The translations under genes and the position numbers were made by a program. Source: a virus. From it: a stretch of 22,799 nt of DNA. How positions within the stretch are numbered: the first letter of the stretch is position 1; the number at the start of each line of letters is the position of its first letter. Location: positions 1 through 22,799 of IMG/VR virus record IMGVR_UViG_3300032265_000488; one strand, 5' to 3'. Under the pieces are notes generated by a model. The model worked only from the letters and a program-made list of their open reading frames with translations, did not search any database and was not told the origin of the DNA. Positions 302-13,325 of this stretch are shown here, one piece after another.

Positions 302-595
302 AAGGTTTCGGGCACGACCCGTCTAGTTAGTTAGCAGTGATCTCTACAGTCTAGTTTGGTGGATTCTCTGAGTGTAATAGCTTAGTTTGGGGCTTGTGAT
401 CTAAATATCTTATAGCATACATACAACCTCCCTATACACAGTTCAAATTCTGTGTACAAGTATTTACTAGATTACTAGATGATTACATGGTTGTTTAGAC
501 CCATTTTTATCTCATGACTTTCCATAAGTACTTCACAGGATTTTTTTGCGCTATAGAAATTTGCCCCGCTAGAACCAATTCATGCTATATACTGT
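302..595. other. Gene-poor spacer with a hairpin and leader copy 2
   Basis: I see no credible reading frame across about 300 bases. The spacer holds a 7-bp hairpin at 435-456 (TACACAG, 8-base loop, CTGTGTA) whose loop TTCAAATT superficially resembles a tRNA T-loop, and then the second leader copy at 524-595. The tetranucleotide CTAG occurs at 323, 351, 467 and 475. An untranslated RNA cannot be excluded, but nothing identifies one. Confidence 0.45.
524..595 (+). promoter_or_regulatory. Leader copy 2 upstream of the small-gene operon
   Basis: This is the second copy of the leader at 83-156: ATAAGTACTTC (524-534), TTTTTTGCGC (542-551), AGA (555-557), CGCTAGAACC (567-576) and GCTATATACT (584-593), followed after two bases by ATG at 596. 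Gaps between blocks match copy 1 to within one base, while the bases inside the gaps differ. That pattern suggests selected function rather than a very recent duplication. It probably drives or controls 596-1344. Confidence 0.55.
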
Positions 596-811
596 ATGCG
601 TCACTACTATATACTCAATCAAAACCCCCGACATTCGGATCTTGTTGGCTGGATCCGAGCTCACGGCCTGGACCATGAAATACACCTTAATCGCACACGC
701 TTTTGGGTTCCCCATGGGCCTATTCTTACAGAGTTTATCTTACGTTTCTCTGACCATTGCGGGCGGGTATTAGACTCACAGAACCTAGCTACAGGACTAG
801 ACTATGAATGA
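596..811 (+). CDS. Conserved-looking small protein (71 aa)
   Basis: The product (71 aa, starting MRHYYILNQNPRHSDLV) has a mixed composition typical of a folded protein, and its middle (RTRFWVPHGPILTEFILRF) alternates charged and hydrophobic residues. It is the first gene of a tight plus-strand run: the next ATG at 804 lies inside its last codons. The ATG follows leader copy 2 directly. No Shine-Dalgarno sequence is evident, so initiation may depend on the leader. A competing frame from 582 is less protein-like and does not fit the overlap arrangement. I know no function. It recalls small hypothetical proteins of aquatic T4-like phages, but that is an impression. Confidence 0.65.
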   Translation: MRHYYILNQNPRHSDLVGWIRAHGLDHEIHLNRTRFWVPHGPILTEFILRFSDHCGRVLDSQNLATGLDYE

Positions 812-989
812 ACTCTATAATGAAACTATCGAACGGCACGGTAAGATCTATCACTACGATCCAGACATGGACTGTTACTACTGTAGATACTCAGATGAAG
901 TAGGCCCCATCAAATGGGCATGGCTTGTGCTATGTATAGTCTTAGCCATTGCCTGTTTCTGCTTAGAGTCGCGTCCCGGATTAGTTTAA
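804..989 (+). CDS. Small single-pass membrane protein (61 aa)
   Basis: The start ATG overlaps the end of the preceding gene by 8 bases and has a good Shine-Dalgarno AGGA at 793-796 with a 7-base spacer. The first 35 residues are polar and rich in Tyr, His and acidic residues, with a Cys-x2-Cys pair at 24 and 27. Residues 36-54 (IKWAWLVLCIVLAIACFCL) form one clear membrane segment, followed by a short tail. The layout fits a type-III or tail-anchored small membrane protein with its soluble part on one side. The function is unknown. A role in host takeover, lysis control or superinfection exclusion is possible but unsupported. Confidence 0.65.
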   Translation: MNELYNETIERHGKIYHYDPDMDCYYCRYSDEVGPIKWAWLVLCIVLAIACFCLESRPGLV

Positions 990-991
990 CC

Positions 992-1198
992 ATGAACTAC
1001 TCACTTTGGCTAAGCCGTTTATTAAGCGGGTTAATCAGCGTTATACAAGCTAGTACGCTTCGTGATCGCTACTACACGCTAGAATCACGTCAAGAACTAT
1101 TTGAACTGGCCATAGAAGATATTGCTCGCATTAACGCTAATTCAGCTAATCCCAATGCACTTATTAGTGGGATTTGTAACAATCTAAGGAACTTATAA
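992..1198 (+). CDS. Small protein with amphipathic N-terminus (68 aa)
   Basis: The frame is open further upstream to 914, but the ATG at 992 lies two bases after the stop of the preceding gene and gives a sensible protein, so I choose it. The N-terminal 20 residues (MNYSLWLSRLLSGLISVIQA) could form an amphipathic or membrane-associated helix. The rest is a soluble, helix-prone sequence with acidic and Arg residues. Its TAA stop shares a base with the next ATG at 1198, so translation is probably coupled. No family is recognised. Confidence 0.6.
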   Translation: MNYSLWLSRLLSGLISVIQASTLRDRYYTLESRQELFELAIEDIARINANSANPNALISGICNNLRNL

Positions 1199-1344
1199 TG
1201 AACGATAAAGATACACAAGGATTTACTGGCTTACCAGAACAGTCAATAGCTGGACTATACTCTAGTTTCGTATTTGTAGGTGCTGTTGTTGCCTATGCAC
1301 TCATGATCATTGCGGGCATTATACTACTAGCCTACTGGCATTGA
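1198..1344 (+). CDS. Small membrane protein (48 aa)
   Basis: ATG at 1198 overlaps the preceding TAA by one base. A clear Shine-Dalgarno AAGGA at 1186-1190 sits 7 bases upstream. Translation gives 48 residues beginning MNDKDTQGFTGLPEQS, followed by one long hydrophobic stretch (about residues 22-46), and ends YWH before TGA at 1342-1344. It therefore looks like a single-pass membrane protein and the last member of the plus-strand small-gene run. The function is unknown. Confidence 0.6.
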   Translation: MNDKDTQGFTGLPEQSIAGLYSSFVFVGAVVAYALMIIAGIILLAYWH

Positions 1345-1433
1345 TTCCGGCCTTGAACTGATCAGTTACTGTAAAACACCCTAGATAACCATTAGGCCCA
1401 TAAGGTGCGCCCGCTAGCAGAACTTGCGTTTTG

Positions 1434-1512
1434 CCGCTACGCTTCGCGTAGTGTACCCTAAAAATTTTCCGCTTTGCTTCGCGAGTAAAAATTTTTGCGC
1501 TGCCGCTTTGCG
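1434..1512. repeat. GC-rich short repeats with a hairpin at the 3' end of the hydrolase gene
   Basis: Three related short units occur close together: CCGCTACGCTTCGCGTAG (1434-1451), CCGCTTTGCTTCGCGAG (1469-1485) and the shorter CCGCTTTGCG (1503-1512). The first forms a perfect 6-bp hairpin, CTACGC-TTC-GCGTAG (1437-1451), just past the minus-strand stop at 1458. The two A+T blocks AAAAATTTT (1460-1468) and AAAAATTTTT (1487-1496) lie between units. The first unit is outside the gene and the others inside, encoding its basic tail. The hairpin may stabilise or end the minus-strand transcript. No strong T-tract is present. Confidence 0.45.
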
Positions 1513-2354
1513 TTGATTAATCCGATGACCTTGCTCATCACACCGGGCACGATATTATTATGATCTAGATCTACTTGAACAGGGTGGCCGCCTGTAGGTT
1601 TATACACTGCCTTTTTCCAACGATCCAGTTCTTTCTGTTGATAAAAGTTCCAATAGTCACCTGCGGCCTGATGATCCAGCTGTTCTACTGTAGAGTACCA
1701 TCCTGCTATACTGACTGTTAGTGCGGGTCTAAGTGCCTGCATGAGTAAACAGCATTTTGCGCCCATTGAGTAGCCCACTAGTACTAGCTTGGTACTAGGA
1801 CGACTTTGATAGTATCTGCTGGCTTCGGCAACTACTGATCCTACATTAGCTTCACTAGTGGGCCCCCATACTCGACCCCCTGTAGCTTCTGCTATCTGCT
1901 CACAGGCTTGATTGCCCCTAGTACCATGGCTCATGCCCTTGAACACGCAGACAGTAAGCTCTTGACCCTGTGCTTCCATTTGATGAAATCTACTTGATTG
2001 ACCAGCATAGGGAGCCTGTAGATTATCGCCTACTGCTTCTTTGGGCTGTTTCTGCAGGGGACCGTCCCAGCCTCCTTGATAAGCATTGGCAGCTTCCGCT
2101 TCTGAACGGTTGATTAGGCGAAAGTAGGCCTTGACCGTGTTCATGTCCCAGGGTGGTTGTGGCCATCCACGGGGAATACGCTTGCTATCATACTGCTTTA
2201 GAGTCTGCTGAACTTCGGGCTCTTTGGCAAAACTCGCTTGCATTTGTGCCTTGGTTTTACCATACAGCTTGATAAACTCGGGCTCGGCTAGATCTGCAAG
2301 ATCTTGAAACAGACGTTTAAGATTAGCTTCTTTGATGATTTCTCTAATTCGCAT
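1458..2354 (-). CDS. Alpha/beta-hydrolase-like protein (298 aa)
   Basis: The C-terminal half carries a nucleophile-elbow motif, GYSMG (residues 194-198, Ser196), after a hydrophobic strand (KLVLVGYSMGAK). A late His, with Asp beside it (VDLDHNNIV, Asp264 and His265), would suit the catalytic His. The ~130-residue N-terminal region is charged and helical and starts MRIREIIKEA. It does not look like hydrolase and may be an anchoring or packaging part. The fold could be an esterase, lipase or cutinase; the substrate cannot be told. The C-terminal ~15 residues are very basic and encoded by the GC-rich repeats at 1469-1512. An ATAAATA element lies four bases before the ATG, and no Shine-Dalgarno sequence is seen. 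Confidence 0.6.
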   Translation of the reverse strand: MRIREIIKEANLKRLFQDLADLAEPEFIKLYGKTKAQMQASFAKEPEVQQTLKQYDSKRIPRGWPQPPWDMNTVKAYFRLINRSEAEAANAYQGGWDGPLQKQPKEAVGDNLQAPYAGQSSRFHQMEAQGQELTVCVFKGMSHGTRGNQACEQIAEATGGRVWGPTSEANVGSVVAEASRYYQSRPSTKLVLVGYSMGAKCCLLMQALRPALTVSIAGWYSTVEQLDHQAAGDYWNFYQQKELDRWKKAVYKPTGGHPVQVDLDHNNIVPGVMSKVIGLINAKRQRKNFYSRSKAENF

Positions 2355-2358
2355 TAGA

Positions 2359-2366
2359 TATTTATC
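2359..2366 (-). promoter_or_regulatory. ATAAATA late-promoter-like element before the hydrolase gene
   Basis: The minus strand reads GATAAATA, four bases upstream of the ATG at 2354. It matches the core of the T4 late -10 element (TATAAATA) in 7 of 8 positions. The distance to the ATG is very short for a promoter with a normal leader, so chance or a leaderless start are both possible. Confidence 0.3.
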
Positions 2367-2398
2367 GGCAAATAATATTCTCTAGGTCAGAAATATCT

Positions 2399-2408
2399 AA
2401 TAAGTACT
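2399..2408 (+). promoter_or_regulatory. AATAAGTACT late-promoter-like element before the 2OG oxygenase
   Basis: The same ATAAGTACT core as in the two leaders at 83 and 524 sits 23 bases upstream of the ATG at 2432. A Shine-Dalgarno GAGGA at 2423-2427 follows. The spacing suits a late-type -10 element with a short leader. Confidence 0.4.
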
Positions 2409-2431
2409 AGAGCAAAAAACACGAGGATCCC

Positions 2432-3004
2432 ATGTATCTAACCAGCAGACTAGTACGAGCACCCATAATACTCACTCGGCAAGAGCGAGCTATCATAGAT
2501 CGTGATGTGCTATCAGCGGTCATGCCCTGGTATGCTAATGATCATACAGTGGGCCTAGCTACGCATCCCGAACAGGCGGTTAATGCCACAGACATTCCCT
2601 ATATGTTTCATTATCTTATGATACGCACAGTTAATCCCGAACATGAAGGACTTGTAGTAGATCCCGGACTTTATGAGTTTTTTAAAAACATATTTGCTCG
2701 TTGGGCCGCTGCCAATGCTGTACCTTGGACCAAGATCTATAGGGCCAGCCTTAATATGAGTTTTTCAACTGATGCTGAGTTTAGTCTACCGCATGTGGAT
2801 CATACATTTCCACATTGGAACTGGATATGGTATCTGGACACTATTCCCAACACTCCCACAGTGCTATGGGACGATAACTGGCAGATAACAGATGAAATTG
2901 ACTGTGTTGAAGATCAGTGTGTGGCCTTTACTCAACGTCAGCATGCTTGGCGCTATGCTCCGGGATTTTACCGTCGGAGACTAGTGGTCTTTACCTTTAT
3001 CTAA
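2432..3004 (+). CDS. 2OG-Fe(II) oxygenase-like protein (190 aa)
   Basis: The C-terminal half has the double-stranded beta-helix signature: HVD (His121, Asp123) for iron, a distal His (His171 in RQHAWRY) about 48 residues on, and Arg residues (181-183) followed by the hydrophobic strand LVVFTFI, suited to bind the 2-oxoglutarate carboxylate. Proteins of this kind hydroxylate a protein, nucleic acid or small molecule, but the substrate is unknown. Trp-rich stretches (HWNWIWYL) flank the site. The start has a good Shine-Dalgarno sequence. Its end overlaps that of the convergent gene at 3001-3237 by four bases. It is the most divergent of the three oxygenases here. Confidence 0.65.
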   Translation: MYLTSRLVRAPIILTRQERAIIDRDVLSAVMPWYANDHTVGLATHPEQAVNATDIPYMFHYLMIRTVNPEHEGLVVDPGLYEFFKNIFARWAAANAVPWTKIYRASLNMSFSTDAEFSLPHVDHTFPHWNWIWYLDTIPNTPTVLWDDNWQITDEIDCVEDQCVAFTQRQHAWRYAPGFYRRRLVVFTFI

Positions 3005-3237
3005 CTCCACGCCAAGAGGAATAAACTGCGGTGTTTGTCGTATTTAAATGCCACTGACACATCATAGCACTCCAGGGCCCAATGCCATGCCCAACGTTGA
3101 TATTTAGATCCCACATAGCCCGTGAGCCACTGTTCTACTTCTTCTACACCCGAGACCCAATCTACTTGTCCGGCAAGTCCGGGCCAGTGTACATTAGCCA
3201 CATATTGAAAGTCATGTAGGTCTGGAAAATAATCCAC
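3001..3237 (-). CDS. Small conserved-looking protein (78 aa)
   Basis: The start codon is GTG with a strong Shine-Dalgarno GGAG six bases upstream, which lifts it above chance. The product is rich in Trp (WVSGVEEVEQWL, YQRWAWHWALE) and ends in the hydrophobic run SLFLLAWS. It resembles small hypothetical proteins seen in aquatic phages, judging only by general pattern. Its start lies just after the T-tract of the terminator at 3248-3280, so it would need readthrough or its own promoter. The stop overlaps the convergent gene by four bases. Confidence 0.6.
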   Translation of the reverse strand: MDYFPDLHDFQYVANVHWPGLAGQVDWVSGVEEVEQWLTGYVGSKYQRWAWHWALECYDVSVAFKYDKHRSLFLLAWS

Positions 3238-3247
3238 TTGCTACTCC

Positions 3248-3280
3248 AAAAAAAAGCACTCCGAAGAGTGCTTTTTGTTT
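3248..3280. terminator. Bidirectional rho-independent terminator
   Basis: The stem AGCACTC (3255-3261) pairs with GAGTGCT (3266-3272), extended by A/T pairs. On the minus strand the loop is TTCG closed by C-G, the extra-stable UUCG tetraloop, and a run of eight T follows. On the plus strand TTTTTGTTTTTTT follows. It ends the structural-gene transcript coming from the right and could also stop the plus-strand oxygenase transcript. Confidence 0.85.
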
Positions 3281-3285
3281 TTTTG

Positions 3286-6200
3286 TTAGGCTTGTGCTTC
3301 ACCCCAACGTAGAACCAAGTTGGCCAACACTGGCGCACCCTGTGTCAAGTACACGTTGATGAATAGTACGTCTGGACCGTTGGGGAATGTACCACGTCCA
3401 CCGATTGGCGTGTTGGTCAATTCCTTAAATGGTGTTAGATCTAATGAGTCCTTGTTAGCTGGCGAACTAATAAACGAGAATACAGTTTCGCCTGGTATAG
3501 CATAAGTTGAACGACTAACTGTGATTATACTACCTGCTTGAACAGTACTAGTCAATGCTTGGTTAATCTGTATAAAGCTAGCACTAGCACCGGTTGGTGT
3601 GTTGCTGAATGTTTGGTTAACAGCGTATGTACCTGCACCACCTATAGTACCACCTAACTGTGCAACAATATATGTACCAGCTGTTACTGAACCACCTGTT
3701 AACTGCATACCTGTTTGAATTGTACCAGTTACTGATGTTGGAGCAAATGTATACAGAGTAGCTGTCATTGTGGTCAAACTTTGCTGACTACCCACTGACT
3801 GTGTTTGGCTTACAGTAAATGAGCTTGGAGCTGTTGTAGCTGAACCAGTTAAGATTGCAGTGATAAATGTACCAGCGGCAACACCGTTACCAGTGATCAT
3901 AGCACCTACTGCGAATCCAGTAGTACCACCTGATGATGGAGCAAACAAGTACAGTGTAGTACCACTGATATAAGCACCGTTAGTTACTGTACCAGCAGTG
4001 TTGGCTGTTACTACTGAACCGGTAAATGTTGCCGAAGCTGTAGTAGCGGCAGTTACTTTGGTTAATCCCAAGAAACCAGTGCTGGTTGCGCTACTTACGT
4101 CATCACCTACTTGTATACCGCTAATTGAACTAACTGGTAATGCAGTTGAACCAGTTTGGATAGCAATGTTAGCTGTTGGGCTTTGGGTGTTATTATTAGC
4201 AAATGTTACACTAGTACCGGCAGCAATTTGGCTAAAGCTAGGCTGGCCAGTTTGTAGTGCTGTTGAGTTCAATGAGTTCCAAGTAATGTTAGACACGTTA
4301 CTTGGATAGTTACTTGGATTTAAAATACCTTCAATAACCACAGCTGAGTTAGTATTAGATGAGCCGCCAACTGTAATCTCAATTGTCTGTAACAACAACT
4401 GCGCACGATTAATCAAGTCACGAACACCTAAATCGCCTACAATAGCGTTCGACACGCTTGGTGCTAGACGAATAGCAAACGCTGTAGTTTTACGAGTACT
4501 AATACTGGTGTTAATACTTTGATAGTTAAAGATGTAACCACGATCACTATCAAAACCACCGTCTTGTAAGAACGCTGAACCCCAATGGCTAATACTTGGA
4601 GTAGCTGTTTGACCAACAAGTATAATACCAGTGCTTGCGGCATGTCCAGCAGCCGCTCCTGATGTGAACAAACGTGTTGTTCCACTTACGTAGACTGGCA
4701 AACTAACACCACGGCTAACGCCTGTTAGTGTTCCAGCACGGATAGTTTGATTTGTATTGTCTTGTGATAGTGTGCTGACAGTTTTACCTGTATAGCTGAT
4801 CAATTCATTTTCAACGTAGCAGTACGCTGGATATGTCGCACTTGGTGTTGGGAAATAGGTAACATCAGTTAGACTTAAGAAGTTGTCACCTACTAGGGCG
4901 GCACTACTTAGGCTAGTACGAGCGGCTTCATTAACCACTTCATAACGAACAGGCTGGTTACCAGAACGCATGTAAGCTTCTGTGTTCAAGTTGTTACCAC
5001 GTAGGCGATGCACAGTTAGGTACTTGCCGTCTGGACCACGTAGCATCCAGTCAACAAATCCCGCACCGTACCATGTCCACTGTAAACCAATCATCTGCAT
5101 CTTGTTAACAATGATATTATAGCCACTTGGATTAAATGCATTACCTGAACCATCACAACGATCCACGTTCCATTGGCTTTGTGGTACTAGGCGATCAACA
5201 GTCTTGACCATCTTAACACCGCTGCCAGCTACTGAGCCACGATAGTCTGGAGTTACATAAATTTGTGTATCACTTGTTACTGTAGTAACCACGTGTGTCA
5301 TACCTTTAATAACCACACGATCACCTGCGATCAATTGGCTAGTAAAACGACTATTTGATCCTGTTACTAGGTTTGAATCCGGATTTACTGTTACTGTACC
5401 GGCAAGCTGGAATGTTGAACTGCGACGTCCCACTGCCATGGCCTGACCGTCCCACTGCCAAAATTGGCCGTTTTGTTCGTCAAATGTACCAGCACGTACT
5501 GTAGCACCCCACCATCCGATGATCTGCATAGTACATGGGCTAGCAATAGCACCCGTTGTTGTCGCTAGTGCATAGGTGACCGGAACAATTAGTTTACGTT
5601 CGTCAATGATCGCACCAACAGTGTAAACACCGTTGAAACCGCTGGTTGTAACACCGATAATGTTAACCTGAGCACCTGGTTGACAACCGTGATCAGTGTC
5701 GTCTGTTTCAATAGTAATACCTGGAGTAAATGTTATAGTAGTACTAGCACTGATAGTAGATAGTGTGGCAATACTGATTGTTAAACTAGTTGAACCACCG
5801 CCAGAAACAATATAGCTACCTACGGCAATACCTGTACCGCTAATTAACATACCGTTAATAGCGTTAGTTCCGCTAGTAACAGTAATTACTGTTGAACCTG
5901 TACTGATCGTACCAGTTGATGTTGTTGTATAAGTTGTAGTTGTAGCATTAGTTGCCGCAATTGAACGAATATCATAGTTAGGAGCAAATAGTGCACCGGT
6001 ATTATAGTTAATAGCCTTACCAGATTGATAACGGATATATTTCTTACTCATACGTACTGCCATTGAACCATGAGTTGGTCCACCGGTGCCTAGCATTACA
6101 CCACCGTCGAATGGTCTATGCTGATAAAAAGCATCTGGGCGTGAGTAAATCACACCAGTTGGTGTGCCTGAAATTTGCCCGCTTGCACGAGCTGTGTAGG

Positions 6201-7635
6201 TAATTGTTGTTAAACTTGGAACTGTTTCAACAAAAAATGGACCTTGTGCTAGACTGTGGTTGTTGGTACCAGTATCTGATCCAATTTGTGCAATAATTGT
6301 ATTACCCGGAACAAAACCATGGTTAGTAGCAAATGTTACTGTAATCGTACTTGATGCAGTGGTACCGTTAATAGTAACACCGCTGGTAGTGCTGGCCACT
6401 AGCACAGCATAAGTTCCGTTACCGCCAGTACCGTTAAACGCACCAGGGAATGTACTAGAACCTGAAACAATAATTACACTACCTGTAGATACGTTAGTAC
6501 CGCTTAGTGTTTGTCCCACAGCAAATCCGCTCGATGTACCGCCTGCGGTAAATGTATTAGTAGTTGCAGTGAATACCAATTGGCTACCACTTGAACCTAG
6601 TGTTTGACTTGAATTTAAAGTCCAACTTGTACCACTTCCTGATACGATATAGGTTCCAGGTAGTATTCCGTTTCCTGTCAGTACTTGACCAATTGCCGGA
6701 CTTCCAGCTGATGTTGTTAGTATCGTACCAGCGATATAACCAGTAACTGTAGTTCCAGATGTTGCAATAGCACCTGAACTAGATGTTCCAACCGCAGTCA
6801 CGGCGCTTGCGCTAAATGTTGATGTGCCTACTGGCGAACCAGTATAGAAGTTACCTTGACGTAGCTGTGTATAGGTTTGCGATAAAACATCACCGTTAGT
6901 TGTACCTACTTTAGATTTTGCATAGTAGGTTAATACGTTACTGCTTACAGAGTTAATCAAAAAACTACCTTCTGCACGAGCAAAACCTTGAACTGTGTTC
7001 AAATAACCTTTAACTGTAATCGGAGTACCTACAGCCCAGCTTGCTGGAAAAGCAGTTGAGTTTGTTATTGTAATTAAACTTTCGCCTACCCCACCTGTAC
7101 CGGCTGAAGCATCAGTAGTAACACTTGTTACTGATTGATCTGTACCTGGAACTTCATAAACGCTTGGATAACCACGTATCAAATCATAGGTCAACCATTT
7201 AGTTGGTTGTAGTCCATACTCAAAGTCAGCGTCAAGCATAGACTGTGGGGGACTAACACGAGTACGTTCAAATGCATCTGTACCAACTTCTGGCATGCGA
7301 ACTAGTTGTTCAGGACGTTCGTATAATATTTGAATTTGATCGCTAGAACTCATCAAGTGGGTATCTGCACCTACTAGTGTAATTGTAGTAATACCGTCGC
7401 TGTTGTCTAGTGAATTAAAAAAGTTTGTAGTGTCGTTTGCACGGCTAAATCCTACAGTTGTACCGCTAAAACTAGGATCGGCAAAGTTATACAATATTGT
7501 GTTACTAGTACTATTAGTAATCAATAAGATCTGACTTAGATCATACTTTCCTGCTACTTTAATCGTGCCATTAAAGGGTGCTTGTGTATTAGCCCCTGGT
7601 GTAAACACGTATTGTCTAATTTGACTCTTTGCCAT
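3286..7635 (-). CDS. Large modular virion or tail-fibre-like protein (1449 aa)
   Basis: The product is extremely rich in Thr, Ser, Gly and Ala. The first ~180 residues look like an ordered domain (MAKSQIRQYVFTPGANTQAP onward, with charged YERPEQLVRMPEVGTDAFER). The middle holds repeats of the form G-x-x-L/I-x-G-x-G-I/V-x-x-G-T/S-x-I-V, encoded near 3640-3720, 3855-3925, 5790-5855, 6450-6530 and 6625-6700. Between repeats lie less repetitive parts containing Trp, Arg and Tyr (encoded about 4900-5200 and 5950-6150). The C-terminus is ordinary (FINVYLTQGAPVLANLVLRW). Composition and size fit a fibre or other virion surface protein. No catalytic site is recognised. A Shine-Dalgarno CGGAGAA and two ATAAATA elements precede the ATG, and a terminator follows at 3248-3280. 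Confidence 0.8.
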   Translation of the reverse strand: MAKSQIRQYVFTPGANTQAPFNGTIKVAGKYDLSQILLITNSTSNTILYNFADPSFSGTTVGFSRANDTTNFFNSLDNSDGITTITLVGADTHLMSSSDQIQILYERPEQLVRMPEVGTDAFERTRVSPPQSMLDADFEYGLQPTKWLTYDLIRGYPSVYEVPGTDQSVTSVTTDASAGTGGVGESLITITNSTAFPASWAVGTPITVKGYLNTVQGFARAEGSFLINSVSSNVLTYYAKSKVGTTNGDVLSQTYTQLRQGNFYTGSPVGTSTFSASAVTAVGTSSSGAIATSGTTVTGYIAGTILTTSAGSPAIGQVLTGNGILPGTYIVSGSGTSWTLNSSQTLGSSGSQLVFTATTNTFTAGGTSSGFAVGQTLSGTNVSTGSVIIVSGSSTFPGAFNGTGGNGTYAVLVASTTSGVTINGTTASSTITVTFATNHGFVPGNTIIAQIGSDTGTNNHSLAQGPFFVETVPSLTTITYTARASGQISGTPTGVIYSRPDAFYQHRPFDGGVMLGTGGPTHGSMAVRMSKKYIRYQSGKAINYNTGALFAPNYDIRSIAATNATTTTYTTTSTGTISTGSTVITVTSGTNAINGMLISGTGIAVGSYIVSGGGSTSLTISIATLSTISASTTITFTPGITIETDDTDHGCQPGAQVNIIGVTTSGFNGVYTVGAIIDERKLIVPVTYALATTTGAIASPCTMQIIGWWGATVRAGTFDEQNGQFWQWDGQAMAVGRRSSTFQLAGTVTVNPDSNLVTGSNSRFTSQLIAGDRVVIKGMTHVVTTVTSDTQIYVTPDYRGSVAGSGVKMVKTVDRLVPQSQWNVDRCDGSGNAFNPSGYNIIVNKMQMIGLQWTWYGAGFVDWMLRGPDGKYLTVHRLRGNNLNTEAYMRSGNQPVRYEVVNEAARTSLSSAALVGDNFLSLTDVTYFPTPSATYPAYCYVENELISYTGKTVSTLSQDNTNQTIRAGTLTGVSRGVSLPVYVSGTTRLFTSGAAAGHAASTGIILVGQTATPSISHWGSAFLQDGGFDSDRGYIFNYQSINTSISTRKTTAFAIRLAPSVSNAIVGDLGVRDLINRAQLLLQTIEITVGGSSNTNSAVVIEGILNPSNYPSNVSNITWNSLNSTALQTGQPSFSQIAAGTSVTFANNNTQSPTANIAIQTGSTALPVSSISGIQVGDDVSSATSTGFLGLTKVTAATTASATFTGSVVTANTAGTVTNGAYISGTTLYLFAPSSGGTTGFAVGAMITGNGVAAGTFITAILTGSATTAPSSFTVSQTQSVGSQQSLTTMTATLYTFAPTSVTGTIQTGMQLTGGSVTAGTYIVAQLGGTIGGAGTYAVNQTFSNTPTGASASFIQINQALTSTVQAGSIITVSRSTYAIPGETVFSFISSPANKDSLDLTPFKELTNTPIGGRGTFPNGPDVLFINVYLTQGAPVLANLVLRWGEAQA

Positions 7636-7653
7636 TTAATTCTCCGTTATTGA

Positions 7654-7674
7654 CTATTTATCATGTATTTATCT
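7654..7674 (-). promoter_or_regulatory. Two ATAAATA late-promoter-like elements before the large structural gene
   Basis: On the minus strand AGATAAATAC (7674-7665) and GATAAATAG (7662-7654) lie 19-40 bases before the ATG at 7635, followed by a Shine-Dalgarno CGGAGAA. Both match the T4 late -10 core TATAAATA in 7 of 8 bases. Placement directly before a virion gene makes a late promoter likely. Confidence 0.5.
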
Positions 7675-8531
7675 TAGCTCAGGGCCGCTGCCATGGCTAT
7701 TGACAATGATTTAATGTTTGTGGTACCCACAGTTAAAGTACCCTGGATGGTAGTATTTCCAGCAATACCAACGCCGCCGCTGACTACTAGAGCACCGTTA
7801 TTATAAGCTGTGCTAGGTGTAGTACTGTTAATTGTTGTGGTTCCTGTAGTTGCTCCGACTGACAATGTAGTTGCGGCGCCGGCAAAATTGACTGTAGTTG
7901 CTGTAGTGTTGACTAGTGGAAATGTAGTTGAACTAGTTGTAATTCCACTCGATGAATTAACTGCTACTGCACCTGAACTAGTAAGTCCGGTTAAAGTACC
8001 TAGACTGGTTAAACTTGAAGTTACTACATTACTTGCTAGGGCAGTGCCGGTTAGTGTGCCGGCAGCCGCTACAGTACTACTAGAAACCCATGCAAATCCC
8101 GATCCAGACCAAGATAAAAATGTATTTGAAACAGCAGGGACTGAAATAAATCCAGTAGTATTTGCGCCTGTTTGGTACAGTAGTTGATTAGTAATTCCAC
8201 CTGCTACTGCGGTAGCACGATTAGCAGTGCCTGCGTTTCCTGATATACTACCTGTAATAGTGTTTGTTACAGTTAAATTTACCAATGTACCTACACTGGT
8301 TAAACTTGAATTTGTTACATTTGGAGCTAGCGTGACTCCGGTTAGTGTTGCGGCAGGTGCTTGTGTAACATTATTTTGGGGATATGGAAGTGTTACCCAT
8401 GGATCAATGCCATTACCATATTTTACCTTAAGGGTATCAGTTTCTAATCCCGGTTCACCGCTGGCTAATGTAGGATTAACACTGACCCAATTAGCTGCCG
8501 TATCTCTTCTTAATTTTATTTGTACTGTCAT
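7674..8531 (-). CDS. Fibre-like structural protein with Mtd-N-type head (285 aa)
   Basis: The N-terminus (IKLRRDTAANWVSVNPTLAS, then GEPGLETDTLKVKYGNG, DPW) matches the short beta domain often found at the start of phage tail-fibre and tropism proteins (Mtd N-terminal-like). The remainder is Ser/Thr/Gly/Ala repeats with units such as NSSLTSVGTL and SSLTSLGTL. It ends NIKSLSIAMAAALS, nearly the same tail as the two genes to its right. It follows the 8547-9059 gene after 15 bases with a GGAAAA Shine-Dalgarno-like site. A role in host contact is inferred from composition and the N-terminal domain. Confidence 0.75.
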   Translation of the reverse strand: MTVQIKLRRDTAANWVSVNPTLASGEPGLETDTLKVKYGNGIDPWVTLPYPQNNVTQAPAATLTGVTLAPNVTNSSLTSVGTLVNLTVTNTITGSISGNAGTANRATAVAGGITNQLLYQTGANTTGFISVPAVSNTFLSWSGSGFAWVSSSTVAAAGTLTGTALASNVVTSSLTSLGTLTGLTSSGAVAVNSSSGITTSSTTFPLVNTTATTVNFAGAATTLSVGATTGTTTINSTTPSTAYNNGALVVSGGVGIAGNTTIQGTLTVGTTNIKSLSIAMAAALS

Positions 8532-8546
8532 ATTTTATTTTTCCGG

Positions 8547-9059
8547 TTATGCTAGTGCGGCACCCATTGCTATTGCTAAACTTTTTATATTGATATTACC
8601 AATATATGCGTTTCCACTTACTCTCAATGTAGTTAACGTTCCTACACTAGTTAAACTTGAATTCACTACAGTACTATTTAATGTATTTCCGGTCAAAGTT
8701 CCGGCACTAGCAGTTACAGTTCCAGATGCTCCTAAAACAATACTGGTTCCATTAATAGTAACGGTACTAGTTTTTAAAGTGTTGAAATTATCTACAGTTG
8801 CGTAAGTTGCAAGATTTGACGCTAGTGCATATGAATTAAGATTAGCTAGTGTTGCGTACTGACTTAGTTTAGCAGAAGTAGCATACTGTGTTAGGTCGGG
8901 TCTATTAATAAGATCAGTGTAGTTGCCGCTAGTAGCTACCGATGCTAGACTTGGCTGGCCTAAGGTCCAATTTATTCCATTCCATACCCAAGTGGCGCTG
9001 CCGGTAGAGTATGATTGATATAGTGTTGGATTTGAAGGAAATGTTACAGAAACTGTCAT
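8547..9059 (-). CDS. Fibre-like structural protein (170 aa)
   Basis: The head differs from its neighbours: VTFPSNPTLYQSYSTGSATW followed by VWNGINWTL, a short Trp-rich beta module common in phage fibres. Next come YAT-containing repeats (QYATSAKLSQYATLANL, SYALASNLATYAT) that look like a trimeric shaft, then the NSSLTSVGTL unit. It ends NIKSLAIAMGAALA. It starts four bases after the stop of the 9064-9612 gene. Likely a virion fibre component; the exact position is unknown. Confidence 0.7.
   Translation of the reverse strand: MTVSVTFPSNPTLYQSYSTGSATWVWNGINWTLGQPSLASVATSGNYTDLINRPDLTQYATSAKLSQYATLANLNSYALASNLATYATVDNFNTLKTSTVTINGTSIVLGASGTVTASAGTLTGNTLNSTVVNSSLTSVGTLTTLRVSGNAYIGNINIKSLAIAMGAALA
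8554..8588 (-). repeat. 35-bp direct repeat, copy A
   Basis: 34 of 35 bases match 9071-9105. Both copies encode the end of the shared C-terminal peptide. Near identity at DNA level suggests recent duplication, gene conversion or strong constraint. It would allow recombination that swaps or deletes the 8547-9059 module. Confidence 0.8.
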
Positions 9060-9063
9060 GATA

Positions 9064-9612
9064 TTAGGCCAGTGCGGCTCCCATTGCTATTGCTAAACTT
9101 TTTATGTTAACTCCGCCTATAATTGCAGTTGGTACTGTTAGTGTGCCTGTGAGTACAGGATTAGCTATAGGTGCCTTAAGAGCAAGTGCAGATGTTTGAG
9201 ATGAAGTAGTTACATATGAACTTAGACTTGCTTGTGTGGCATAGGTACTACTTGCTGTAGCAGTTGTTAGATATGAACTTAGACTTGTTTGTGTGGCATA
9301 GGTACTACTTGCTGTAGCAGTTGTTAGATATGAACTTAGGCTTACTTGTGTGGCATAGGTACTACTTGCTGTAGCAGTTGTTAGATATGAACTTAACGCA
9401 GTATTTCTAGCAGTAATCGTATCATATGAGTTAAGTAAATTACTAGTCCATGTTTGGGTAGCAAGTTTAATACCACCTTGACTAGTACCATTCATTACTC
9501 TAATAGTGCCGTTGGTAGAATCGTAGACTATATCGCCATTCATGTAGCTTAGGCGATCTAACTCTACACTGGCGTATGGGAATAATTTAACAGAATGTAC
9601 TGTTTTGCTCAT
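9064..9612 (-). CDS. Fibre-like structural protein with 19-residue tandem repeats (182 aa)
   Basis: The N-terminal ~55 residues (LFPYASVELDRLSYMNGDIV onward) form a distinct module. Then come three near-perfect copies of a 19-residue unit, SYLTTATASSTYATQxSLS, encoded by a 57-bp tandem repeat (9214-9384). The C-terminus is NIKSLAIAMGAALA, identical in its last 14 residues to the 8547-9059 product. The repeat suggests an extended shaft. An AAGGA lies 10 bases before the ATG, and a TAAATA element a little further upstream. Likely a virion fibre or related surface protein. Confidence 0.7.
   Translation of the reverse strand: MSKTVHSVKLFPYASVELDRLSYMNGDIVYDSTNGTIRVMNGTSQGGIKLATQTWTSNLLNSYDTITARNTALSSYLTTATASSTYATQVSLSSYLTTATASSTYATQTSLSSYLTTATASSTYATQASLSSYVTTSSQTSALALKAPIANPVLTGTLTVPTAIIGGVNIKSLAIAMGAALA
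9071..9105 (-). repeat. 35-bp direct repeat, copy B
   Basis: Partner of 8554-8588 with one mismatch. It encodes the C-terminal peptide of the 9064-9612 gene. Confidence 0.8.
9214..9384 (-). repeat. 57-bp tandem repeat, three units, inside a fibre-like gene
   Basis: Units begin at 9214, 9271 and 9328, and a partial fourth at 9385. The period is exactly 57 bases, that is 19 codons, so copy-number changes keep the reading frame. Units differ by only a few bases. Slippage could vary fibre length. Confidence 0.9.
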
Positions 9613-9634
9613 GGAATACTAGTCCTTTATAACT

Positions 9635-9643
9635 AGTATTTAC
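9635..9643 (-). promoter_or_regulatory. TAAATA late-promoter-like element before a fibre-like gene
   Basis: The minus strand reads GTAAATACT, 22-30 bases upstream of the ATG at 9612, with AAGGA between them. It is part of the ATAARTACT family seen before several other genes here. Confidence 0.4.
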
Positions 9644-9649
9644 CTGCTT

Positions 9650-10093
9650 TTATTCTTTGTGGTAGTACTGATAGTTTACTGATGTTTCGTTTGTTTTGTG
9701 TACTGTAGCACCGTTTTTTAGATGAAAACGTCGAGCCATTTCAGTTTGCGGACTTAGTGTAACAATATTTTTAACATCTTTAAATTCACCTAAAATCCAT
9801 TCGGCAGCCTGTTTAATTAATGCGGCGCCCGCGCCTGGTTTATAACTCCAGATAGTATAAAATACTGCTGTATTTTTATCTTTGCCCATGTTAATTAAAT
9901 CTTGTTCGTCTTTAGGTATATCGCTTAACCATTGCAGGCAAGTGGCCGCTAGTATTTCTTCTCCTGCTCGAAGAATTAAAATTTCAGCAGTTTCATTTAT
10001 ACGCTGGCTTAAAGGAATATGTGGACGCACTGGGTCGTCCTGAATAACTCTAGTAAGGGGATCATCGGTTGAGCGTAAGTGGTATAGTTCCAT
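9650..10093 (-). CDS. GNAT-like acetyltransferase (147 aa)
   Basis: Strand-helix order fits a small GNAT fold: a central strand pair around EEILAATCLQWL and TAVFYTIWSYKP, a Gly-containing turn then helix (GAGAALIKQAAEWILGEF, about residues 92-109) where acetyl-CoA would bind, then NIVTLSPQTEMARRFHLKNG (about 114-133), a typical GNAT strand and helix. The end is YQYYHKE. The canonical Q/R-x-x-G-x-G/A motif is only loosely kept, so activity is uncertain. It lies alone between gp41 and the fibre genes, with an ATAAGTACG element upstream. The substrate is unknown. Confidence 0.5.
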   Translation of the reverse strand: MELYHLRSTDDPLTRVIQDDPVRPHIPLSQRINETAEILILRAGEEILAATCLQWLSDIPKDEQDLINMGKDKNTAVFYTIWSYKPGAGAALIKQAAEWILGEFKDVKNIVTLSPQTEMARRFHLKNGATVHKTNETSVNYQYYHKE

Positions 10094-10118
10094 GGCGTAG
10101 ATTCACAAGTATTATATA

Positions 10119-10127
10119 CGTACTTAT
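10119..10127 (-). promoter_or_regulatory. ATAAGTACG late-promoter-like element before the GNAT-like gene
   Basis: The minus strand reads ATAAGTACG, followed by TATAAT at 10116-10111, upstream of the ATG at 10093. Either could be a -10 element. The 53-bp A+T-rich gap separates this gene from gp41. Confidence 0.4.
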
Positions 10128-10146
10128 CTCTTTAATTAAAAATGTG

Positions 10147-11580
10147 CTAGATATCGTCTGATGGAAGATTATTAAGTAGTTCTCTCAACTTACTCGACTC
10201 AACTTGCGCACGAACTTTTGGCACGGCCGCTCCGGTTGTTGGATCGTTAATTTCACCAGTTGATGCATTAATTGTTTGACGTTGCTTAATTGAATTTAAT
10301 AAAGTAGAGCCTGCAGATTGGCTGTTAAGATTACCATAACTGTCTTCATCGGCTAGGTCAGTAATACGTAGACTATCAATATTAAATTCTAAATCAATCT
10401 TCATACCAACACCGCTGGAACTACGTGTTTTCATCAGTTGGATTTGATAGCGACCACGTTCACGCATAGCACGGCTTGTGAAAATACCAAACACATTATC
10501 TGCTGTTTGAATCTTGGATAAGCCTCCTGAAATATGTGAGTGGTCGAATTCAACTTCTTCTACAGCACCACGATTCAACTGTGCCGCAGTTACAAACACA
10601 CAGTTCTTTTCTACCGCTAGATTTCGTAATTCTTCACTAACATACTTGTCTTTAATAAACAGGTCTGCTGGACTAATTTTCTTACTCTGCGGCATTAACA
10701 AGTCCAAGTAGTCAACTAACAGAACATCGACTTTTCGGCCTGTCTTGATTTCATATTCTTTTAAGTAGCTTCTAATATCATTGGCAGTTTTACCACTCGG
10801 CATATATTTTACCTGGTAAGTACCAGATTTTTTACCTACCATTTTAACTTTCATCTCGACATCATCGAGGTTCTTAAATATCTCACGAGTGGCCATTCCA
10901 GTTATCATTGCATCCATACGCATAGACACTAGTTCTTCTGAAAGTTCTAATGTCAGGTACACCACGTTCAAGCCAGCAAGTGCCCAATTGATACCTAAAT
11001 TTGCCAAAAATAGTGATTTTCCTGCGCCTGAACCGCCTGCAAAAATATTCAGTTCACCTCGGTTCATACCGCCGAATAATTTATCATCCATAGCTTTCCA
11101 ACCAGTACTTACTTGACCGTTGTTATCTTTAATCCTCATTAGACGAGCACGTGGATCTAGGAAATAATCAGTACCCATATCCTTAGTTAAGCCTACTTGG
11201 ACCGCGGCTTTTATCTTTTCTTCAACAGGACCATACTCGCCCTTTTCCAGCAAGTCTGCTGATTCTAAAATAGCTCGTTCAAGTCCTTTGTGGCGTATAA
11301 ATGTTTCAAAATCATTCATTAGCCAGTCAAAATGTTCTTCACGTAGGTCTGCAGAAACCTTAAAATCACTGCCAGTAGCGGCGTTTACAATGTCTTGTGT
11401 AGGCATAACGTTGTGTTCTTCAACATATTTGTTTAAAAATTCTGCAGGCACTTGGAGCTTGCGATCAAACAAACTTGCGTCAAAAATACTTTGACAACGA
11501 ACAAATGTTGCCGCATCTGCTAGCATCATTTCTAGGTATAATTTCTGTATATCGTAACCGTAATCTGTATTTTGTGTCAT
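10147..11580 (-). CDS. gp41: Replicative DNA helicase, T4 gp41 (DnaB family)
   Basis: This is the hexameric 5'-3' helicase that unwinds the fork and works with primase gp61. An N-terminal helical domain (about 1-150) precedes a RecA-like core: Walker A GGSGAGKS (182-189), the following LTLELSEE (about 209-216), Walker B LLVDYLDL (287-294), then AAQLNR and the SGGLSKIQTADNVFGI region with the Arg residues expected of the DnaB family. The length of 477 aa is near that of T4 gp41 (475). It ends the operon gp61, 69-aa protein, oxygenase, gp41, ten bases after the oxygenase. No clear Shine-Dalgarno sequence is seen. Confidence 0.95.
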   Translation of the reverse strand: MTQNTDYGYDIQKLYLEMMLADAATFVRCQSIFDASLFDRKLQVPAEFLNKYVEEHNVMPTQDIVNAATGSDFKVSADLREEHFDWLMNDFETFIRHKGLERAILESADLLEKGEYGPVEEKIKAAVQVGLTKDMGTDYFLDPRARLMRIKDNNGQVSTGWKAMDDKLFGGMNRGELNIFAGGSGAGKSLFLANLGINWALAGLNVVYLTLELSEELVSMRMDAMITGMATREIFKNLDDVEMKVKMVGKKSGTYQVKYMPSGKTANDIRSYLKEYEIKTGRKVDVLLVDYLDLLMPQSKKISPADLFIKDKYVSEELRNLAVEKNCVFVTAAQLNRGAVEEVEFDHSHISGGLSKIQTADNVFGIFTSRAMRERGRYQIQLMKTRSSSGVGMKIDLEFNIDSLRITDLADEDSYGNLNSQSAGSTLLNSIKQRQTINASTGEINDPTTGAAVPKVRAQVESSKLRELLNNLPSDDI

Positions 11581-11590
11581 ATAGTGTTTA

Positions 11591-12142
11591 TTATTTTAGC
11601 AAAGGTCCAGTGAACCATATTGAAAGCGTTTTTCTATTACCTTTTGTTACAGGAGTCACTCTGTGGTAAGTCCACGATGGAAATACTATAACTGAACCTG
11701 GTGTATCTAATTCTAAAATCCGCCGTGGACCGCCTTTTAAAAACAATTCAAAATGGCCGCCTTCGTATTCTTCGTCTGACAGATTAACTATAGCTGTTAG
11801 TTTAACGTCCCATATATCGTTTTCTCTATAGTCTTGATGCCAACCATATTCACCGTTGACCTCTGATTGATATTGATTGTAGTTTACACATATTCTGTCG
11901 TTTAGATCATAGAGATCTAGACCAAAACACATTTGATTTGTAAAAATAACATGCTGTTCTAAATCTTTAATATAATCTTTAGCAAGTTTCCAAGCTACTA
12001 GATCAACCTTTGCAGATTTAACTACTCCCAATGATGGAATGTCTTTAGCCGGTGTTATTTTACAATCTCGTTCCAAATTAGAACAAATTTCTTGACATTG
12101 TTCTTTTGAATAAAACGGGCGGACATAGTAGTGACTTTTCAT
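11591..12142 (-). CDS. 2OG-Fe(II) oxygenase, prolyl-4-hydroxylase type (183 aa)
   Basis: The iron-binding triad is clear: HQD (His102, Asp104) and a distal His160 in WTYHRV, with the usual PGSVIVFPS strand before it. A basic residue (Arg170 or Lys171) is placed to hold 2-oxoglutarate. The region between them (LTAIVNLSDEEYEGGHFEL) is typical of this family. Its ATGA start overlaps the stop of the 69-aa gene. The placement between primase and helicase suggests expression during replication, but the substrate is unknown. It is clearly distinct in sequence from the oxygenases at 2432 and 16600. Confidence 0.85.
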   Translation of the reverse strand: MKSHYYVRPFYSKEQCQEICSNLERDCKITPAKDIPSLGVVKSAKVDLVAWKLAKDYIKDLEQHVIFTNQMCFGLDLYDLNDRICVNYNQYQSEVNGEYGWHQDYRENDIWDVKLTAIVNLSDEEYEGGHFELFLKGGPRRILELDTPGSVIVFPSWTYHRVTPVTKGNRKTLSIWFTGPLLK

Positions 12143-12348
12143 TTTATTTTCTCTAACAATTCTTCTCTATATATTTGCCATTCTGATTGTGTACTAGCAC
12201 TTAAACACAATTCTATTGCACCTTTAATTTCTTCATCTTTAATTGTAGCATCTTCCATCATACTAAGCAAATGATTGAATACCGTACGAGGTAATCCGAC
12301 GCCGTCTGGCCCACCGTGTTTAGGTATTTTAATTAGTCTTTGAACCAT
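12139..12348 (-). CDS. Small hypothetical protein in primosome operon (69 aa)
   Basis: The first 22 residues are basic and Gly/Pro-rich (MVQRLIKIPKHGGPDGVGLP), the rest an acidic helix-prone sequence (SMMEDATIKDEEIKGAIEL onward). The start overlaps the end of gp61 by 16 bases and the stop overlaps the next start by four (ATGA), so it is translated with its neighbours. I do not recognise the family. It could be a small protein partner of the primosome, judged only by position. Confidence 0.75.
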   Translation of the reverse strand: MVQRLIKIPKHGGPDGVGLPRTVFNHLLSMMEDATIKDEEIKGAIELCLSASTQSEWQIYREELLEKIK

Positions 12349-13325
12349 TGTTTTGCTCGTAATCTAATTTTTAATGCATTTGATTCTTTTGCTGAAACAA
12401 TTAACCACAACGTAGCCAATCTTCCTATTTTGATCACTGCATCATTAACATCCTTAACACCTTCTGGCCAATTGGGCATGCTAACAGACCAACCGTATTC
12501 AATTGCTTGCTCTACTGTTCTAGGACCTTCATGATCTCTGTCTGGAACTAGTACAATCTCTTTACCTAGCTGTTTTAATAACCAGTTTTGACTGTCTTTT
12601 ATCTCCGCTCCTAGCAAAGCACACGCATCAATACTTAGTGCGTCAAACGGACCTTCACAAACAATAGTGAACTCTCGTTCATCATGTTGATTATCTAAAT
12701 TAAACACGTATCCAGGCTGTTGTTCCGACAGATATTTAGGTTGAGCATCATTAATCGCACGAGCTGTCCAGCCTACGATTTCTCCCTTGTATAAAAACGG
12801 AATAATAATTCTGTTGTTGAATCCTACTTTATTAGTGTGATAAAAAGGATAACCGAATATGTCGATATTTCGTTTGACCAGATATTCTACCACCTTGTTT
12901 AATGCATCGGGCATGACATACTCATCATCTGTCAGCTTAAGAAACGTAATCCATTCATCAAAACTACGAGCATCCATAGGTAATGCTCTTGTTTCGAATT
13001 TAGGAATTATACTTCGAACTTCTGTAGTTGTGTTTTGATCTAATCTAAGTGCTTCTAGTCTAAGTTGATTAATGGTATCATCCGGAATATTAAGGTCCCG
13101 CATAAACTTATTCATCTTTTGGCTGATGTGCCTGCCAGGTTGCCACGAACATTTAAATCCGCAATTGAAACAATGATAACTTACGGCATCGCCTTGATTG
13201 ATAATAAATCCACCCCGCTGTCGTTTGTCATCACAGCAGGGAGCATTAAAACTTATCCAACCACTTGGAGTATGTTTTCGTTTTGCAGGTAGATAAGTTT
13301 GTAGTGTATCTGCGATTAGGCTCAT
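12333..13325 (-). CDS. gp61: DNA primase, T4 gp61 type
   Basis: It synthesises RNA primers for lagging-strand replication together with gp41. The N-terminus has a zinc-ribbon with Cys30-Cys31 and Cys52-x2-Cys55 (YHCFNCGFKC). The Toprim domain follows: the glutamate motif VCEGPFDAL (Glu224) and the metal-binding DRD (Asp262, Asp264) in LVPDRDHEG. The length of 330 aa is near that of T4 gp61 (342). The start ATG lies right after the structural gene at 13338, and a TATAAT sits exactly six bases upstream. Confidence 0.93.
   Translation of the reverse strand: MSLIADTLQTYLPAKRKHTPSGWISFNAPCCDDKRQRGGFIINQGDAVSYHCFNCGFKCSWQPGRHISQKMNKFMRDLNIPDDTINQLRLEALRLDQNTTTEVRSIIPKFETRALPMDARSFDEWITFLKLTDDEYVMPDALNKVVEYLVKRNIDIFGYPFYHTNKVGFNNRIIIPFLYKGEIVGWTARAINDAQPKYLSEQQPGYVFNLDNQHDEREFTIVCEGPFDALSIDACALLGAEIKDSQNWLLKQLGKEIVLVPDRDHEGPRTVEQAIEYGWSVSMPNWPEGVKDVNDAVIKIGRLATLWLIVSAKESNALKIRLRAKQWFKD

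Follow-up and report, generated by a model that had tools for sequence, protein, structure and literature searches.

Three consecutive small fibre-like genes of an IMG/VR virus end in a common 14-residue peptide. This C-terminal tag is real, widespread and modular. Its position directly before the gene for a giant virion protein (in one group, before a second giant) is near-exclusive, and the N-terminal heads that carry it are exchanged among phages. We think it probable that the tag serves as a C-terminal docking element, by which virion adaptors carry the separately encoded part of a split giant fibre.

Three tagged genes and their giant neighbour

The window, that is, the whole stretch of DNA analysed, is a 22.8 kb virus record (22,799 nt; IMGVR_UViG_3300032265_000488, positions 1-22,799). 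It contains T4-like replication genes, including a DnaB-type helicase and a UvsW-like helicase. Three small fibre-like genes, all on the minus strand, were found between the helicase and the giant virion gene (Table 1). A 147-aa protein encoded between the helicase and the fibre genes (9650-10093) matches the C-terminal domain of malonyl-CoA decarboxylase (PF05292, 6e-7), is kept at the same place in relatives and is perhaps a GNAT-type acetyltransferase. A 298-aa protein (1458-2354) shows weak DLH/cutinase similarity below cut-offs and is a possible alpha/beta hydrolase.

Table 1. Tagged fibre-like genes, their modules and the giant gene in the window.
Feature	Position	Strand	Remarks
ORF1	9064..9612	-	182 aa, tagged fibre-like, VHSVKL/GDIVYD head
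ORF1 head module, residues 1-52	9457..9612	-	from head comparison with relatives
ORF1 shaft, residues 74-130	9223..9393	-	three nearly identical 19-residue repeats SSYLTTATASSTYATQxSL, from translation
ORF1 C-terminal tag NIKSLAIAMGAALA	9067..9108	-	read from sequence
ORF2	8547..9059	-	170 aa, tagged fibre-like, FPSNPTLxQ head
ORF2 head module, residues 1-33	8961..9059	-	from head comparison with relatives
ORF2 C-terminal tag NIKSLAIAMGAALA	8550..8591	-	read from sequence
ORF3	7674..8531	-	285 aa, tagged fibre-like, directly upstream of the giant
ORF3 head, Mtd_N domain, residues 5-42	8406..8519	-	PF18454, E=2.3e-13, 50.3 bits vs cut-off 26.3
ORF3 C-terminal tag NIKSLSIAMAAALS	7677..7718	-	modelled as helix 273-284
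Giant virion protein, phrog_5838	3286..7635	-	1449 aa, E=3.8e-237; proposed docking partner of the tag

The common C-terminal peptide reported by an earlier, sequence-only reading was recovered as described: the C-termini of the three proteins read NIKSLAIAMGAALA, NIKSLAIAMGAALA and NIKSLSIAMAAALS, with the stop codon following at once, and all fit NIKSL[AS]IAM[GA]AAL[AS]. The range given for it, 7677-9105, takes in all three tags and the greater part of the genes, but ORF1 extends to 9612. The tags of ORF1 and ORF2 are identical in 14/14 residues and in 38/42 nucleotides, while the ORF3 tag matches either of them in 11/14 residues and 26-30/42 nucleotides. The ORF3 tag DNA differs from the other two at many synonymous sites with the peptide kept. 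These divergences indicate that the ORF3 copy is old and that the ORF1 and ORF2 copies are close. Only 35 of 10,562 same-locus gene pairs have seven or more of the last 14 residues in common, with the window pairs highest among them. The last nine residues are uncharged in all 106 tagged proteins (106/106), compared to a background of 13.8%.

The N-terminal modules had been described as unrelated. This holds for the heads, which belong to separate head clusters, but ORF2 and ORF3 also have a low-complexity shaft repeat in common (GTLTGxTLxSxVVxSSLTS[VL]GTL), so the tag is not their sole joint part. Comparison of the window shafts by blastp without composition correction gave significant matches, but these are low-complexity and were not used as evidence for related heads. 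ORF1 has neither a Pfam nor a PHROG match, and ORF2 has none in Pfam. Among the three tagged ORFs, Mtd_N exceeds the curated Pfam cut-off in ORF3 only, and the T4_gp9_10_N domain was not detected by Pfam in any window ORF. In PHROGs, the ORF3 head also matches tail fibre, tail spike and hyaluronidase families at their N-termini. The C-type-lectin variable domain of the whole major tropism determinant is absent from ORF3, in which Pfam shows only Mtd_N and the end is the tag.

The giant is mostly beta, and an AF2 model of residues 1-1190 is nearly all beta. A PDB sequence search with the giant gave no match, and Foldseek gave no PDB match at E<=0.001. The best of its weak matches were endosialidase tailspikes and a tail-tip structure of phage Chi; the strong ones, from BFVD, were phage proteins either uncharacterised or named 'virion structural'. 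Longer giants of other phages have an N-terminal region in common with the short-tail-fibre family phrog_4527. DSL-LC01 was checked as a possible adaptor-giant fusion and is not a fusion.

Forms of the tag and its linkage to the giant gene

Relatives were retrieved by DNA-pattern and protein scans of IMG/VR, and the tag was found at their exact C-terminus. The sequence-only reading had named two findings that would speak against it, absence of the tag from close relatives and wide occurrence in unrelated non-virion proteins. Neither was observed, and the NIK form has 0 matches in the GTDB genome contigs scanned. A tblastn search of phage records with the bare tag, a query too short for this purpose, gave no matches, and a first locus search with ORF1 retrieved chiefly proteins that match its shaft repeats and lack the tag. 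The first loci yielded 17 distinct NIK-type proteins, including the three of the window, whose genes form runs, one to three genes long, before the giant. The three-gene order of the window is found in L027 and L028, two tagged genes in L025, L037, L276 and L281, and one in L029 and L044. The tag lies 0-1 residue from the stop, with the giant next or with more tagged genes between, in the window, L027, L028, L025 and L281.

In a wider set, a second form, YVDxxxxA[LF][AS][IV]A[LF]G, was identified at the C-terminus of the gene preceding the giant. Since the ORF1-type head bears the YVD form in G009, the two forms look equivalent. Together they occur in marine and freshwater T4-like phages and in a podovirus, ctQRb9. 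An unlike C-terminal peptide (LPEKIKNLFF-like) recurs on several proteins of 254-303 aa encoded at one locus of L014, which is part of a 140,755-base contig, and may mark a second family of such tags.

The core of the tag is present in 38/49 nonredundant genes directly upstream of the phrog_5838 giant and in 9/466 other genes (Fisher p=6e-39), with a core motif composed after seeing the data. Six to seven of these nine are further tagged tandem neighbours in the same runs. Because of the way the motif was composed, a second test was made that ignored the giant and scanned IMG/VR with a DNA pattern of the YVD form. It gave at least 84 sites. Among the matches listed, 83/84 lie 0-1 residue before the stop, and the giant is next in 83/83 of these C-terminal sites, 81 by BLAST and 2 by a cut but recognisable N-terminus.

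Whole records show the same arrangement. One tagged gene each was found in S-CAM1 (178 genes) and in the large contigs G001 and G012, and the sole tagged gene among the many fibre genes of S-CAM1 adjoins the giant. P-SSM2 retains the S-CAM1 head family (phrog_11338) with neither the tag nor the downstream giant. L039, L040 and G009 have two tandem giants, each with its own tagged gene upstream, and G009 carries four tagged genes, two before its two tandem giants and two before a different giant. In these sequences, the tag tracks the giant rather than the head. Gene adjacency by itself can reflect co-regulation. In L039/L040 (about 395-12638), the tandem phrog_5838 paralogues are 2305 and 1439 aa long, with one YVD tag and one NIK-like tag upstream.

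There are exceptions. A cyanophage clade comprising S-PM2, Syn1, S-RSM4 and ACG-2014h has a shorter giant and an untagged upstream gene, and the tags are degenerate in a freshwater clade (L048-L063, L081-L092). In G009, L282 and L283, a pair of tagged proteins is followed by a different giant, in which He_PIG domains (L283) or a haem-peroxidase domain (G009) were identified. The partner is thus not always phrog_5838, and the tag may serve more than one distal partner. In L261 (7118-8278, the end of the G009 contig), the giant virion-type protein starts with MPLNIWTQPTGY and has an animal-type haem peroxidase domain (PF03098, 4e-64). It directly follows two tagged proteins, one of which is headed by the T4 gp9/10 N-domain.

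The tag is better conserved than the head or the giant N-terminus. In Mantel tests, tag divergence tracks the giant N-terminus slightly better than head divergence does, with differences that are small, confounded by phylogeny and of weak support, and in one comparison head divergence follows the giant C-terminus about equally well. In a simple-descent reading, the tag is an inherited terminus of a single duplicated gene family, conserved but not indicative of any interaction. This would fit the nearly identical tag DNA of ORF1 and ORF2 and the shaft repeats common to ORF2 and ORF3. It is hard to reconcile with a tag that sits on unrelated heads in unrelated phages, is better conserved than the remainder of the protein and keeps its peptide in ORF3 through many synonymous changes, and we regard it as highly improbable.

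The tag could instead be a mere folding and trimerisation nucleus that seals off a short, partnerless fibre at its C-terminal end, similar to the foldon of T4 fibritin, a C-terminal trimeriser (PMC3797505). The AF2 monomer of ORF3 has a terminal helix (273-284, pLDDT about 75) after a beta segment, as this would predict, in models of low overall confidence (mean pLDDT 60 and 63). Similarity to the YVD region of the S-CAM1 protein was also found inside the fibre families phrog_6518, 1640 and 2647. A partner-free nucleus, however, leaves unexplained the 83/83 giant adjacency among the YVD matches listed, the untagged state of the other S-CAM1 fibre genes and the loss of tag and giant together in P-SSM2. 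An uncharged, fully hydrophobic helix would also have exposed faces unless a partner covers them. The foldon has no sequence relation to the tag, which tracks a partner gene. We consider this explanation unlikely.

A short, conserved, C-terminal peptide on otherwise variable proteins could also be a recognition signal for an assembly chaperone or a protease. No small chaperone-like gene was found alongside the tag, whose constant neighbour is a virion protein of 1-2.5 thousand residues, and other fibres of the same genome (S-CAM1) are untagged, so that we give such a signal very little weight. The general trimerisation or chaperone tag suggested by the sequence-only reading is disfavoured because S-CAM1 has a single tagged gene among many fibre genes.

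Heads and the polarity of the tagged proteins

The 97 nonredundant tagged proteins comprise seven head clusters, and the same heads also occur untagged. The ORF1-type head is tagged in L025, L027, L028, L044 and G009 and untagged in L037 (482 aa) and L042 (177 aa). The ORF2-type head is tagged in L028, L073, L159 and L168 and untagged in L037 and L058. An Mtd_N head with 86% identity is untagged in L058.

The heads that can be named appear, by sequence similarity, to be virion-attachment modules: T4_gp9_10_N, podoviral tail-fibre N-termini and Mtd_N. An 84-aa tagged protein consists of PF07880 T4_gp9_10_N (1e-6, above cut-off; phrog_677, 1e-14) and the tag. This N-domain was found only in second-locus relatives such as L283. 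In the podovirus ctQRb9, residues 1-125 of the tagged protein align with residues 1-119 of podoviral tail fibres that are 650-1000 aa long. The protein then ends in ...YAIALGG-stop, followed by the phrog_5838 giant. In S-BM3, residues 1-280 match the first 279 of the 1092-aa fibre family phrog_9851, and the protein ends in ...YAITFGV-stop, again followed by the giant. In both layouts the tag stands where the distal part would start in a one-piece fibre. The Mtd_N head of ORF3 presumably has a virion-proximal role as well, which is backed by the N-terminal position of Mtd_N in many fibre and spike families.

The sequence-only reading had proposed the opposite polarity, in which one common site on the virion receives the tag, and the interchangeable heads are the receptor-binding tips and a route to change host range. 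One constant end with many variable ends, and three tandem copies in one genome, would suit this arrangement. Yet the identified heads are N-termini that attach to the virion, and the tag is common to a podovirus and to T4-like phages with different virion sites, whose joint feature is the giant. We therefore consider tip-like heads improbable. Because the heads resemble virion-attachment modules and the tag tracks the giant, the heads are probably mounted on the virion with the tag facing the distal giant, and the polarity first proposed is most likely reversed. The modular-attachment idea was right in kind, as the tag is an element on virion fibre proteins with interchangeable N-terminal modules and is conserved in relatives.

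A proposed docking model and its relation to known fibre systems

We infer a mechanism involving a trimeric plug, physical docking, several virion sites and a receptor role of the giant. Each small protein would consist of an N-terminal virion-mounting module, a beta-rich shaft, a C-terminal beta-turn and a short uncharged helix, namely NIKSLAIAMGAALA, or YVDxxxxALAIALG in other phages. In the trimer, three C-terminal helices may form a hydrophobic plug, which the downstream-encoded phrog_5838 giant would cap or seat on as the distal, probably receptor-facing part. As the plug would be constant, the heads could be exchanged or multiplied. In the window phage, the same giant may be mounted by the three adaptors at as many as three virion sites, or the adaptors may be in competition for it.

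Joining of a proximal C-terminus to a distal part encoded next door is familiar from the T4 long tail fibre (gp34/35/36/37) and from T-even gp37-gp38. No sequence relation to the tagged proteins was found in these, and to our knowledge they carry no such tag. The T4 gp9 socket is another likeness: gp9 contacts baseplate gp7 through its N-terminus and offers its C-terminal domain as the seat of the long tail fibre (PMC3004832). The likeness lies in the one tagged relative with a PF07880 N-domain, which has a shaft and the 14-residue tag instead of the gp9 C-terminal domain. The window heads are not gp9-like, and seating of the distal fibre on the C-terminus is here suggested by gene order only.

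Klebsiella phage KP32 gp37/gp38 shows fibre-fibre docking via a short conserved peptide (PMC13082707). KP32 gp37/gp38 and G7C gp66/gp63.1 are branched receptor-binding protein systems with fibre-fibre docking and exchangeable parts, like the proposed tag system. In these two, the docking peptide belongs to the N-terminus of the second protein and fits into a branching domain, whereas the tag is at the C-terminus of the upstream, virion-proximal protein.

Kyanoviridae S-CAM1 and S-CAM3 also have this gene pair, as the 'tail fiber protein' phrog_11338 plus phrog_5838, and their tag is of the YVD form. There a single tagged gene with an unrelated head lies before gp13, whereas the window genes follow the replicative helicase. 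The tagged gene and giant directly precede the neck genes gp13 and gp14 in S-CAM1, S-CAM3 and S-BM3, and at 3286-11580 of the window the fibre-giant module adjoins the replicative helicase. These different locations suggest that the module moved as one unit.

Most host-recognition parts of abundant aquatic phages lack annotation, and cyanomyoviruses have been described without recognisable wac, g10, g11, g12, g34, g35 and g37 (PMC2984593). We found no description of this tag in the literature searched, whose coverage was incomplete. Because the tag is short and predicts a fibre-giant pair, it is a simple handle for adaptor and distal fibre genes, and provides a testable docking interface. More tentatively, the tag might be a general plug-and-socket standard common to T4-like myoviruses and podoviruses of aquatic bacteria, by which any virion-attachment head gaining a tail of ~14 residues can mount the same giant adhesin. 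If true, one phage could display one giant fibre at several virion sites via tandem adaptors, and phages would exchange mounts independently of adhesins.
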